Shown piece after piece: positions 12,986 to 22,993 of a DNA stretch of 23,189 nucleotides. Made by a program: the position numbers and the translations under genes. Positions within the stretch are counted from its first letter, which is position 1. Each line of letters opens with the position of its first letter. Source of the stretch: a virus; the IMG/VR virus record IMGVR_UViG_3300033153_003202, positions 1-23,189 of that record; one strand, given 5' to 3'. Under the pieces are notes generated by a model that saw only the letters and a list, made by a program, of their open reading frames with translations, searched no databases and had not been told where the DNA came from.

Positions 12986-13684
12986 CTACCCCTTCTTTTT
13001 GCTCGCCCGCTTTTTCCTCGTCTTTTTCTTCGGGGGCGTTGGGGTAGGTTTTGGATCGTCGATCAACAGCCCGACTGATGCCGCTTCGTCCGGATCGACT
13101 TCAGCGGTGTCTGTCTGCACGGGGCCTTCGGGAACTTCGGTAGCCTTGCTGTCTGTCTTGATCAGGTGTCCATCGTCGTCGATGTGGGTGCCGAAGGTTG
13201 TGTCAGGTTGCGGCTTGGGCTCTGGTGCTACTTCTGGTGGAACCAGCACCGTCTCGAGACCCTTCGCAACACCTTCGCGCTCGTCATCGGTCAACAGGCC
13301 TTCCAGTTCACTGTGCGGCATCGACTCGGCGAGATCGGCCGCTTCAAGAGCAGTTCCTGCACCATCGGCAACCATGTGCACGATTGCCAATCGCTTGGTG
13401 ATGATCTCGGCCGCTGCGTGAGCCGTGTATCCTTGCGCCATAGCCTTGGCGAACGTCGGGACATCCACAACTTCGGTTTTCGGGATCGGCGGGATCGAGT
13501 GGTCTATGCCGCGGTCGCCGCGTTTCGATAGCGGCTCCATCCATGACTCGCCGTCGGAGGGTATCCACCGAAGCACGCCCATCGATACGAGCGTGCGCTT
13601 CGGCTTCAAATCAGGACAAGGATCCCCTGGTTTGCACTCTACTCCCTTGTAGGTCCGCGCCTTTTGGAACACGTATGGGGCCAC
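12986..13684 (-). CDS. Hypothetical head-connector region protein with Lys-rich tail
   Basis: 232 residues from GTG 13684, supported by GAGGTG five bases upstream; no better start is present. Residues 1-60 (YVFQKARTYKGVECKPGDP, then LVSMGVLRWIPSDGE) look like a small beta domain. The middle contains a helical stretch (FAKAMAQGYTAHAAAEIITK). The last 90 residues are acidic and Pro-rich, ending in KKKTRKKRASKKKG. It lies between the capsid gene and the head-tail adaptor, the usual place for a small head-completion protein. The basic tail could contact packaged DNA, which is inference only. Family not recognised. Confidence 0.75.
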   Translation of the reverse strand: MAPYVFQKARTYKGVECKPGDPCPDLKPKRTLVSMGVLRWIPSDGESWMEPLSKRGDRGIDHSIPPIPKTEVVDVPTFAKAMAQGYTAHAAAEIITKRLAIVHMVADGAGTALEAADLAESMPHSELEGLLTDDEREGVAKGLETVLVPPEVAPEPKPQPDTTFGTHIDDDGHLIKTDSKATEVPEGPVQTDTAEVDPDEAASVGLLIDDPKPTPTPPKKKTRKKRASKKKG

Positions 13685-13717
13685 AGTGTCACCTCGTAAT
13701 GGAAGGACCAGAAACCG

Positions 13718-13891
13718 TCAGCCAGTTGCCGGGTTGATCAGGAGCAGTCCCGAATCGGCAGCCGTGATCTTTGGATCAAAAGCGGTTTCGGAATGGAGCC
13801 AATCGCCCAGTGGGTCATCACTGCGCCAACGCCGTATCGCCGCGCCACCCTTGCCATTCGCGTCGTAGTCAGACCACGAGTAGGTGTACAT
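13718..13891 (-). pseudogene. Displaced C-terminal fragment of the major capsid protein
   Basis: This frame, +1 relative to the capsid ORF, encodes YTYSWSDYDANGKGG, then AAIRRWRSDDPLGDW, then FDPKITAADSGLLLINPATG. That is the expected end of this major capsid family: a YTF.W strand, a basic R.W/R.R strand and a final 'K..A.DxG.L..N' strand. It begins at an AATG within the capsid gene with no useful ribosome-binding site, so separate translation is unlikely. It is read here as the severed end of the capsid gene after an internal deletion with frame change. Confidence 0.75.
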
Positions 13892-14582
13892 TGTAAACCG
13901 TTTCGGTGACGAGGAAGTTTGCCACGCCGAACCCTTTTGCGAGATCCGAATAGTCGGCAAATCCGCCATCGGAAGTGTGCTTGATTTTGTCGAGGGTGTC
14001 ATCGTGCTCGAGCAAATAATCAGCAACTTCCGCGCATGCCACGATGGTGTTGGGCTTGAACCCACCGCACAGCTTTTGCAGGGTGCGAAGGTACGCGCGC
14101 ACCACCACATACGGGGTGCTCGAGCTGTCAGAGAAATGCACGAAGTCGGAACCCGAAGCGGCGCCCGTTGCAGTCGTGGTCCAATTGCCCGACGTGAACA
14201 ATTTGGTGATGACCTGGAGCTCGCGACGAAGCAACTGTTGCTGAGTCAAAAACCGAACCGTTGCGTCATCGAGGTCGACATCGGCATCGGTTCGGTCTTT
14301 GTCAAGGATGAGCTTCTTCAGCGGCCACTCTTCACAAGAGTAGGTTGAGCTCGACATCTCGAAGGTCGCCTCAGGTGCCGGCGAGTTCCGGTCGGTCTCG
14401 TCCGTTTGCAGACGGAGGAAATCAGCGGCATCCCAGATTGGGTACTTGTCGCTCGATTTCGCGACCTTGATGATCGGGGACACCTTGTCGGCGATGAACA
14501 TCTCCTGATCTTGGACGAATCCGATCGACAAGTCCGTGAGCAGGGTATCGATATGCACTTGAGACTTGAGAGGGCCTGGCAT
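13869..14582 (-). CDS. Major capsid protein, C-terminus lost by frame disruption
   Basis: 237 residues from ATG 14582, with a strong AAGGAG site eight bases upstream. The opening (VHIDTLLTDLSIGFVQDQEM, then FIADKVSPIIKVAKSSDKYP), the middle (STYSCEEWPLKKLILD, QQQLLRRELQVITKLF) and FKPNTIVACAEVADYLLEH match the HK97-fold capsid family that opens with HID..L...S......FIAD.VFP. After TETVYN the frame runs into VHLLVV and stops. Relatives continue about 35-45 more residues before a YTF.W strand; here that strand lies immediately after, in the +1 frame. The product therefore lacks the end of the P-domain and is probably non-functional, unless the sequence is in error. Protease-scaffold and decoration genes upstream confirm its identity. 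Confidence 0.8.
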   Translation of the reverse strand: MPGPLKSQVHIDTLLTDLSIGFVQDQEMFIADKVSPIIKVAKSSDKYPIWDAADFLRLQTDETDRNSPAPEATFEMSSSTYSCEEWPLKKLILDKDRTDADVDLDDATVRFLTQQQLLRRELQVITKLFTSGNWTTTATGAASGSDFVHFSDSSSTPYVVVRAYLRTLQKLCGGFKPNTIVACAEVADYLLEHDDTLDKIKHTSDGGFADYSDLAKGFGVANFLVTETVYNVHLLVV

Positions 14583-14657: not shown

Positions 14658-16406
14658 TTACGCCGGGGTGAATACGCTGTAGTAGCAAGTGACTCGCAAC
14701 AGCCGGTCGCCGGCTGCGTTGTACGGACTTGCGCTCATCGTCCAGACCAGATCCTCATCGGCATCTGGCACAACAACGGTTGCTAGTTGTTTGATGTCTA
14801 CCAGAGTGTCTGCGCCTGCACCGTTGAACCAATTGGCCAACGTCAGCGACACGGTTGCCCCGCCACCAGCCGTTTGGTACTTGATGATGGAATTCTCGTT
14901 CTGGTCGTAGTTGGCGCCTCCGCCCGAAATGTTGGCGATCAAGTGATGGAAAATCAAAGCATCACCAGAAGCGACTGTCCCTAGACCTACCTCGGCCGAG
15001 AAGTCGACCAACACCAATGGCGTGGCATCTCCGGCTTTCACTTCGGCCGCTGACCAGTTGGTGGTCGCTTGCCGCATGAACGTCTTGGCCAGAGTCAGTG
15101 CGCCGCCAGCCGCCAATGTGGCATCGCCGCTCACCGCAACCGATGCCGGCGCCGTGCCGGAATCGACCATGATGTTGCCGCCGGTCGCGCCCATATCGAG
15201 CACGGTTATGTCGTTCGTAGTACCGACCACGACATTGCCGATCGGAACGTTGAGCTCCGTGATCGCATTGGCGGTGTTCGTTCCCTTGATGATGATCCCG
15301 TGACCACCTGCCGCAACGCTTCCCAGCATCGCAGGAGTGACGGAGTCGTTTGCGATTGTGACTGCCCCACCGTCCGCGATTGTGACATCGCCGGAAACCG
15401 TGGCCCACTGTGGCGCGTTCGACCCACCCTGTTGCAGGATGTCGTTGGCGGTGCCTTCACCCAATCGAGCCAAGGCAGTTGCACTGGACTTGTAGAGGAT
15501 GTCGCCTGTGGCATCCGAGCCGACCGTCACATCTGTGCAAGTCGCAACGCCATCTGCCAGTGTGACATCGCCGCTCATACTCACCCACTCGGGGAGCAGG
15601 CTGCCGCCATCCATCTGCAAATATTGGCCCGTGGTGCCCTTTGCCAATCTCTCGAACGTGCTCGCCGAATCGCGCATCAAAATGTCGCCGCTCGCATCGC
15701 CGGCTGCCGTGGTGGCCAAGTCTGTCTGTGCAGCGGAAGTGATAGCCGATTGAGCAATCCACTCCGGGGCCGTGGCACCGGAATTCATCGCCAGGATTTG
15801 CACCGTAGTGCCCTTGGCCAAGCGCTCAAACGTGGTCGCCGAATCACGATAGATGAGATCGCCTGAGGCGTCCGAGGCTGCCGTGGTGTCGATATCGGTA
15901 CACACTGTCACACCAGCGTTGCTCATCGTGACATCGCCGGTCATGGTAACCGCAGCGGCTTCGCCGCTACCGTTGCCAAGCCACACCTTGCCGTCCGCCA
16001 ACGCCCGGTCCGCCACTGCGCTGTTGAGCGCGGTGCCGAGACAAATGATGCACGGGATGCGGTCGCCGTCCGAGCCGTCCGACAAAGCGATTGCAATGAC
16101 TGCCTCGTCCGGATCGGTCTGAGCGATCAACATACCGTCGACATCAACCACGAGTCGGTTTTGCTGGCTGACGGTCCCGCCAATCTTCGGCGAGAAGATC
16201 CCGCCGTACACAACGCTGGCCGCTTCACCCTCATCGGGCGCGTTGAACAGAATGCCGAGAGTGAACTCGCCAAGCGTGTCACACAGCTCGATAACATCGC
16301 TCGAGAGTTTGACGGCGTAGTACTGATTGTCTGTGAGATCCGAACCAGCAATGAGCCCAGTAGAAACGATTTGCGGCTTGCCTTCGTATGCTCCGATGTC
16401 GCCCAT
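14658..16406 (-). CDS. Capsid decoration protein fused to fibre-like repeats (candidate head fibre)
   Basis: ATG 16406 is chosen over the GTG five codons upstream because AGGA lies 8 bases before it; this gives 582 residues. Residues about 10-105 (STGLIAGSDLTDNQYYAVKL, then FTLGILFNAPDEGEAASVVY, then RLVVDVDGMLI) match DUF2190-type capsid cement proteins, which are usually about 110-130 residues. The rest is an extension. Three repeats of about 57-60 residues share a (S/G)DA(S/T)GDI...SAT.(F/L)(E/A)RL..GT...IL block and SGDVT segments. They lead into a C-terminal beta domain (about 130 residues, ATTNWSAAEVKAGDATPLVL onward). The gene lies between protease and capsid genes, the decoration-protein position. 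It may project fibres from the head. Confidence 0.7.
   Translation of the reverse strand: MGDIGAYEGKPQIVSTGLIAGSDLTDNQYYAVKLSSDVIELCDTLGEFTLGILFNAPDEGEAASVVYGGIFSPKIGGTVSQQNRLVVDVDGMLIAQTDPDEAVIAIALSDGSDGDRIPCIICLGTALNSAVADRALADGKVWLGNGSGEAAAVTMTGDVTMSNAGVTVCTDIDTTAASDASGDLIYRDSATTFERLAKGTTVQILAMNSGATAPEWIAQSAITSAAQTDLATTAAGDASGDILMRDSASTFERLAKGTTGQYLQMDGGSLLPEWVSMSGDVTLADGVATCTDVTVGSDATGDILYKSSATALARLGEGTANDILQQGGSNAPQWATVSGDVTIADGGAVTIANDSVTPAMLGSVAAGGHGIIIKGTNTANAITELNVPIGNVVVGTTNDITVLDMGATGGNIMVDSGTAPASVAVSGDATLAAGGALTLAKTFMRQATTNWSAAEVKAGDATPLVLVDFSAEVGLGTVASGDALIFHHLIANISGGGANYDQNENSIIKYQTAGGGATVSLTLANWFNGAGADTLVDIKQLATVVVPDADEDLVWTMSASPYNAAGDRLLRVTCYYSVFTPA
15440..15900. repeat. Three diverged tandem repeats in the decoration gene
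   Basis: Units begin near 15448, 15630 and 15804 (period about 175-180 bases). The last two share words such as ccgaatc and ggctgccgtggtg in order. They encode the GDASGDI...ERLAKGTT modules. The match is clear at protein level and partial in DNA. Confidence 0.65.
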
Positions 16407-16426
16407 GACTCTTGTCCTCACTTATC

Positions 16427-18025: not shown

Positions 18026-18029
<4 letters not shown>
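17925..18029 (-). CDS. Com-like zinc-ribbon protein, start codon uncertain
   Basis: Reading ...NPRCVKCGKRLALVL, then VVVCPRCKRQNLSA to the stop at 17925, this frame gives a short two-CxxC zinc ribbon. It closely follows the pattern of Mu Com (RC.(V/H)CGKLLA....I.CPRC...N). Com is an RNA-binding regulator that permits translation of mom. The only in-frame start at the right distance is ATA 18029, overlapping the portal stop codon; a GTG at 18014 would lose the first Cys. A distant ATG at 18200 would give 91 residues overlapping the portal HTH. No mom-like gene is seen here. The ribbon itself is convincing; whether and how it is translated is not settled. Confidence 0.45.
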
Positions 18030-19654
<1,625 letters not shown>

Positions 19655-21426: not shown

Positions 21427-22671
21427 TCAACACTTCCATGGGTTCTTGGTTTCGTTCTGTTTGAAGCTGGGATCGATCGACGTCGTGCGACTCTTGACCA
21501 ACGGTCCAAGTCCGTAGCGAGCTGCGTCCCAAATGTGATTGTGCTTGTCGATAATGACGGGCAACACATCGCCGCTGAGTCTGTCTGTCTTGTATGAATA
21601 CAGCCGCGCCTCGTCGATCGCGTGCCTGCACCGTGGATGGATGATGATCCGCTTGTACCCGCGCAAGTGTTGGATACCGTCCTCGACACTGCCCGACCAT
21701 TTCTTGCACGGCTTCATGTTGGGATAGCCGTGCTTCTTCATGTGCGATATCGTCTCGGGCCGAGCGTTGTCAGCACGCGTGATATATTTCCTAGCGTCGG
21801 GCACGCTGTCAAATAGCTGTGGCAAGTCGTCATTGTCAACCCCGACTCCATACGCCTCATGCTCAATGTACAGATCGCGCTCGAGTGACCCTTCGACACC
21901 GCTCACCCACATACGCACAAGCGTTGTTGGGTCGGTGGAGAATCCCCAGTCAGCCCCTTGGTGCGGACCGCTCCAATCTTTCTTCGGCTCGAATGATTCG
22001 ACTACCCATTTGCCGTGTAGAACTTGAGCTTTGCTGCGCTGACGAGTCTTGCCGCCCCAGACGTGCGCAGCCGCGTCACTGTCGACAGAATAGAGGTAAT
22101 CCTTCTCGGCGATCATTTCGTCGGACAACCACGGGTTGTCGGCCCATCCAACTTCAACGACTTTCGAATCTGGCGGCGGGTGATCGATGAAGCGACGATA
22201 AACCGGATCGGACTTCTGATCAGGGTTCCAGCTCGTCCATATCTCACTGCCTTCTTTGCGCACTGTCGGTATCAACACATTCCAAGATGCTTCGGAGACG
22301 GACTGCCCTTCCTCAACCCATGCGATCGTGACGCCTTCTGTGCTCTTCACGTTTTCAGAATTCAACCGCAACCCCGTGAAGATAAACTCGGTGCCGTTCT
22401 TGCCGAGTATCTGGTTTTGAGTGACCCGATAGAAGCCACTCAACCCGAGCGCTTCGATCTTGTCCGTGAGCAGTTTGTGCACTGAGTCCTTGATACTCGT
22501 TTGGAATTCGCGCGTGCAAAGAATGCGGTGTCTGTTTTGTGCGCCAAGGATGAGTAGCGCTTCCGCGATTGCGTGACTCTTGCCGCCGCCGCGTCCGCCG
22601 TAGAGCGCCTTGTACCTGCAAGGCTTGAAAAGAAACTGGAAGATCTCCAGTATGTCGGTCTTAGCTATCAC
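21427..22671 (-). CDS. terL: Terminase large subunit (PBSX type)
   Basis: The frame is open to 22755, but the part before 22671 overlaps the small terminase and reads as shadow. GTG 22671 overlaps that gene by 11 bases and gives 414 residues (MIAKTDILEIFQF...). Walker A is GGRGGGKS (25-32) and Walker B TIAWVEE (115-121), with a SWNP coupling segment at 147-150. The nuclease half has ADWG (Asp241), Asp301 and a late D.HNHIWDAARY segment (Asp375 and Asp382 candidates). This is the ATP-driven motor and nuclease that cuts and pumps DNA through the portal. Length agrees with the PBSX/Terminase_3 family (about 400-430). Between it and the portal lie five small genes and MuF. Confidence 0.92.
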   Translation of the reverse strand: MIAKTDILEIFQFLFKPCRYKALYGGRGGGKSHAIAEALLILGAQNRHRILCTREFQTSIKDSVHKLLTDKIEALGLSGFYRVTQNQILGKNGTEFIFTGLRLNSENVKSTEGVTIAWVEEGQSVSEASWNVLIPTVRKEGSEIWTSWNPDQKSDPVYRRFIDHPPPDSKVVEVGWADNPWLSDEMIAEKDYLYSVDSDAAAHVWGGKTRQRSKAQVLHGKWVVESFEPKKDWSGPHQGADWGFSTDPTTLVRMWVSGVEGSLERDLYIEHEAYGVGVDNDDLPQLFDSVPDARKYITRADNARPETISHMKKHGYPNMKPCKKWSGSVEDGIQHLRGYKRIIIHPRCRHAIDEARLYSYKTDRLSGDVLPVIIDKHNHIWDAARYGLGPLVKSRTTSIDPSFKQNETKNPWKC

Positions 22672-22993
22672 TTGGCGACTTGACGAAATTGACAACGATA
22701 CCCTCGAGCTTGTCGCCGCCCAAGTCGATCGATTGCGCCGGCTTGCCCCAACCACGGTCGAGGAGAGAGTTGGCCGCTTGAAGTCTCACTGCATCCTTGT
22801 CGGCCGACTGCGCGAGCTCAACGAGGGTATCAAGGGCCATCTGAGTTTGTGCGCGGAACGCCTCAATAATATCCTTGGGGATCTTCGGACGGCCGGAGGG
22901 GTTGCCAGACTCACCGGGCTTGAATTGCCACGGCTTATCTGCTTGGGAACTGTTACCAGTCTTCTTGCTGGCCTTTTTCTTCCGGGCAACCAT
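22661..22993 (-). CDS. Terminase small subunit, DUF5681-type
   Basis: 110 residues from ATG 22993. A Lys-rich start (MVARKKKASKKTGN) is followed by the DUF5681 signature, WQFKPGESGNPSGRPKIP (about 22-39), and a helical body (FRAQTQMALDTLVELAQSA, then VRLQAANSLLDRGWGKPAQS). DUF5681 proteins sit directly upstream of large terminases in many phages and are taken as small-terminase or packaging-recognition proteins. Overlap with the large terminase start (11 bases) supports this. The function is inferred mainly from family and position. Confidence 0.75.
   Translation of the reverse strand: MVARKKKASKKTGNSSQADKPWQFKPGESGNPSGRPKIPKDIIEAFRAQTQMALDTLVELAQSADKDAVRLQAANSLLDRGWGKPAQSIDLGGDKLEGIVVNFVKSPSDS

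Follow-up and report, generated by a model that had tools for sequence, protein, structure and literature searches.

The gene for the major capsid protein is broken in an IMG/VR virus record of 23189 bases (accession number IMGVR_UViG_3300033153_003202; the whole record was analysed and is referred to here as the window), which raises the question of whether the virus itself or only its record has lost part of the gene. The record, which may be a fragment, is taken to be an assembled sequence from an uncultivated, metagenomic source. The window is the head-tail module of a siphovirus-like phage, and the genes on the minus strand were found in the order terminase, Mu-F-like head protein, portal, XkdF-like protease, head decoration-like protein, capsid and tail genes.

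The capsid open reading frame (minus strand, 14582 to 13869) encodes 237 amino acids (aa) and was identified using the phrog_1005 profile and by its identity to the capsid protein of a sister phage. It matches the phrog_1005 major head protein with an E value of 4.3e-45 over positions 3 to 228 of the 315 in the profile, i.e. the N-terminal two thirds. Residues 1 to 231 are family sequence, and the final six (VHLLVV) are an out-of-frame read-out. The protein ends in TETVYNVHLLVV*, with the stop located after TETVYN-VHLLVV, and the codons of the capsid frame at this point are GTT TAC AAT GTA CAC CTA CTC GTG GTC TGA. The C-terminal strands of the family, MYTYSWSDYD...ITAADSGLLLIN, were found directly after TETVYN in the +1 frame, where they form an orphaned C-terminus of 57 codons and a stop (minus strand, 13718..13891). 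The other two frames of this stretch contain stops. Thus, the complete C-terminal part that accompanies the N-terminal part of phrog_1005 members in the same frame is present in the window only in the +1 frame and with 34 residues absent. The orphaned C-terminus matched residues 265 to 317 of the sister capsid (L001) with 31 of 53 identities (58%; BLASTP E value 1e-22), far beyond chance, which confirms the original prediction that the capsid frame stops just after TETVYN and that the C-terminal strands lie in the +1 frame. These had been placed within about five codons of each other and are indeed very near, but the transition is in fact immediate, as the AAT codon for N231 (13892-13890) and the ATG codon for the M of MYTYSW (13891-13889) have two bases in common at the junction (minus strand, 13889..13892).

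The sister capsid gene (IMGVR_UViG_3300031920_000058, examined as loci L001 and L020) is an intact single frame of 319 residues, and its product is 68% identical to the window protein over window residues 1 to 231. Between the two junction points L001 has 34 residues (102 nt), whereas the window has a 2-nt overlap, and 104 nt (3x34+2) are therefore absent relative to L001. A missing length of the form 3n+2 had been predicted, and comparison with relatives bore out the further proposal that one missing block accounts for both the short protein and the change of frame. The relatives examined were 103 capsids from 88 IMG/VR loci, 13 sequenced phages, the sister and one locus in a Petroclostridium chromosome. 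All 103 have a single open frame across the match and none is broken or has the same short C-terminus, though the IMG/VR loci were taken in order of match strength, so that the sample favours intact genes and gives no base rate for such lesions. The interval between the junction points is 34 residues in 80 relatives, 41 in 16 and 36 to 57 in the other seven, close to the 35 to 45 residues originally proposed. In GenBank phage records, 102 of 105 matches span 80% or more of the sister capsid.

Several positions within the 34 missing residues are nearly invariant in the family (G 91%, an F column 92%, P 98% and A 92%), and the block aligns with the solved phage protein 3bjq. The missing stretch belongs to the conserved core of the capsid and is no inserted element, and the structural cost that its loss would carry rests on this conservation and on the alignment to 3bjq. 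No second record of the same virus was found in searches with the capsid, its C-terminus, an exact 20-mer or the portal.

The orphaned C-terminus still has the character of coding sequence. It is free of stops, and mismatches to the sister over 54 codons number 21, 9 and 29 at the first, second and third positions, with few second-position changes, indicating that it was recently under coding constraint. The corresponding mismatches for the N-terminal part are 59, 48 and 128 over 230 codons. The 57% identity of the orphaned C-terminus to the sister falls within the 5th to 95th percentile range of 55-78% seen for 1416 family pairs with N-terminal identities of 60-76%.

The lesion is also isolated. 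All other genes that could be compared with the sister (terminase, Mu-F-like, portal, protease and tail genes) are collinear and each is in one frame, mostly at ~35-67% identity with one weak tail-gene match at 26%, and the capsid is the sole disrupted frame among them. The gene of unknown function downstream of the capsid (minus strand, 12986..13684) is intact, with a single open frame and a match in the sister, and the upstream neighbour, a head decoration or fibre-like gene (minus strand, 14658..16421; phrog_673 head scaffolding, E value 6.5e-8), is in one frame, as it is in the sister. The lesion is a single event, either young or artefactual, rather than part of a wider decay.

Other differences and similarities between the two phages were observed within the module. 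The product of the decoration or fibre-like gene is 587 aa with internal repeats in the window and 375 aa in the sister, and the two have only approximately the first 126 residues, the N-terminal part, in common, suggesting a possible fast-changing surface fibre. The portal protein of both phages (window 18026-19654, minus strand; L020 6279-7901) has a predicted HTH_17 excisionase-like DNA-binding domain in its C-terminal ~70 residues (Pfam E values of 3.6e-10 and 2.3e-9), preceded in the window by a Pro-Glu repeat linker; this is an unusual fusion, as predicted from the Pfam matches. The gene before the large terminase (window 21427-22993, minus strand) encodes a short DUF5681 protein, and the sister gene at that place (L020 10403-10966) encodes an unrelated-looking protein of 187 aa.

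The phrog_1005 family of HK97-type capsids includes those of Roseobacter phages RDJL Phi 1/RDJL6, Pseudomonas phage KPP23, Arthrobacter phage Kovu and Rhizobium phage RHph_TM3_3_9. The window resembles this family in that residues 1 to 231 and 53 residues of the orphaned C-terminus align, and in the place of the capsid in the head module, behind a decoration or scaffold-like gene. However, the window capsid lacks 34 core residues and its C-terminus is out of frame, a lesion seen in none of the 103 relatives. Likewise, the window and the sister share the same head-tail gene order, but in the sister the capsid frame is intact. In phage T7 gene 10A/10B, the frame-0 product is a complete capsid protein and the shift merely adds an extension. 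The window is similar in having C-terminal sequence beyond the capsid stop in another frame, but its frame-0 product lacks core sequence, which no shift restores. Nothing specific was found in the literature on capsid frameshifts and metagenomic errors.

It is probable that ~104 nt were lost from the assembled sequence and that the capsid gene is intact in the virus. We infer a fault in the record rather than in the virus because the capsid gene is indispensable and no further lesion accompanies this one, and this is supported by the finding that all 103 relatives, cultured phages included, hold the segment in one frame. Two adjacent pieces could have been joined on a few matching bases over a short uncovered stretch, or an equivalent join could have arisen during library preparation or read merging. 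If the conserved N and A residues that flank the block in the family (97% and 92%, respectively) existed in this virus, the join overlap would be ~2-5 nt, which would misfit the collapse of a repeat by a k-mer assembler and would fit either a short-overlap join or a real microhomology deletion. Counting against an artefact, assembly errors more often take other forms than a 104-nt deletion, and this overlap is shorter than the minimum lengths given for joining by overlap. rnaSPAdes, which belongs to the SPAdes family, joins contig tips that overlap exactly over 8 bp or more and are linked by one read pair, or that are linked by five read pairs alone (PMC6736328), though the assembler behind this record may differ.

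The sequence by itself does not tell such an artefact from a genuine, very recent deletion of ~104 bp in the sequenced DNA, arising by microhomology or slippage, and it is possible, though a good deal less probable, that the window comes from a phage that is defective, or from a prophage only just inactivated, and that makes no heads of its own. The clean junction, a few bases of microhomology compatible with the conserved flanking residues, and flanks that have not decayed, as suits a young event, are all in keeping with a genuine deletion. However, the comparable genes include no second lesion, and neither an integrase nor a host flank, which would point to a prophage, was seen in the 23 kb record, which is possibly a fragment. 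Established phage biology holds that a lytic population in which a capsid null has become fixed would not persist without complementation. Decay of a prophage, as originally suggested, was rejected, as several disrupted genes would be expected and only the capsid is disrupted among those comparable with the sister, which are otherwise in frame.

A working short or split capsid, in which a compact shell protein arises through programmed +1 frameshifting or through independent translation of the C-terminus, is very unlikely given that the 34 core residues are in neither frame. Well before the junction the +1 frame is already open, and an ATG at 13891 starts the C-terminal piece, but neither route supplies the 34 residues present in all 103 relatives, no ribosome-binding-like sequence was found ahead of the internal ATG, and the stop context, GTC TGA C, is probably a poor slip site, as GTC moved by +1 would pair with TCT. 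The suggestion that this gene has lost, by excision, an insertion element that its relatives carry fits the absence of a block relative to the sister. It is contradicted by the comparison, as in all 103 relatives the block is ordinary, family-conserved capsid sequence in frame that aligns with 3bjq, and excision, if precise, would restore the frame instead of disrupting it, leaving this reading extremely improbable. If the assembler had collapsed a tandem or direct repeat in the strict sense, a deletion with a clean junction would also result, but no direct repeat of 7 nt or longer was found, either flanking the equivalent block of the sister or at the junction in the window. Though the virus's own missing sequence could differ, collapse in this sense has hardly any likelihood, and of the assembly collapse originally proposed, a false join on a short overlap is the part that is still viable. 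Polymerase skipping driven by a hairpin was considered separately and rejected, as the corresponding DNA of the sister folds no better than shuffled sequences (z 0.01).

The lesion, for which a record error is the most likely source, is therefore a commonplace oddity rather than a novelty in phage biology. It bears mainly on data quality, as the major capsid gene, a key marker, is broken in a public virus record, and the broken capsid is still accepted by profile searches over two thirds of their length. It is highly doubtful that a capsid-null phage population lives on the shell protein of a helper, or that a compact capsid is functional without the 34-residue block. Nevertheless, should the deletion be genuine and persist, complementation by a helper phage would be indicated.
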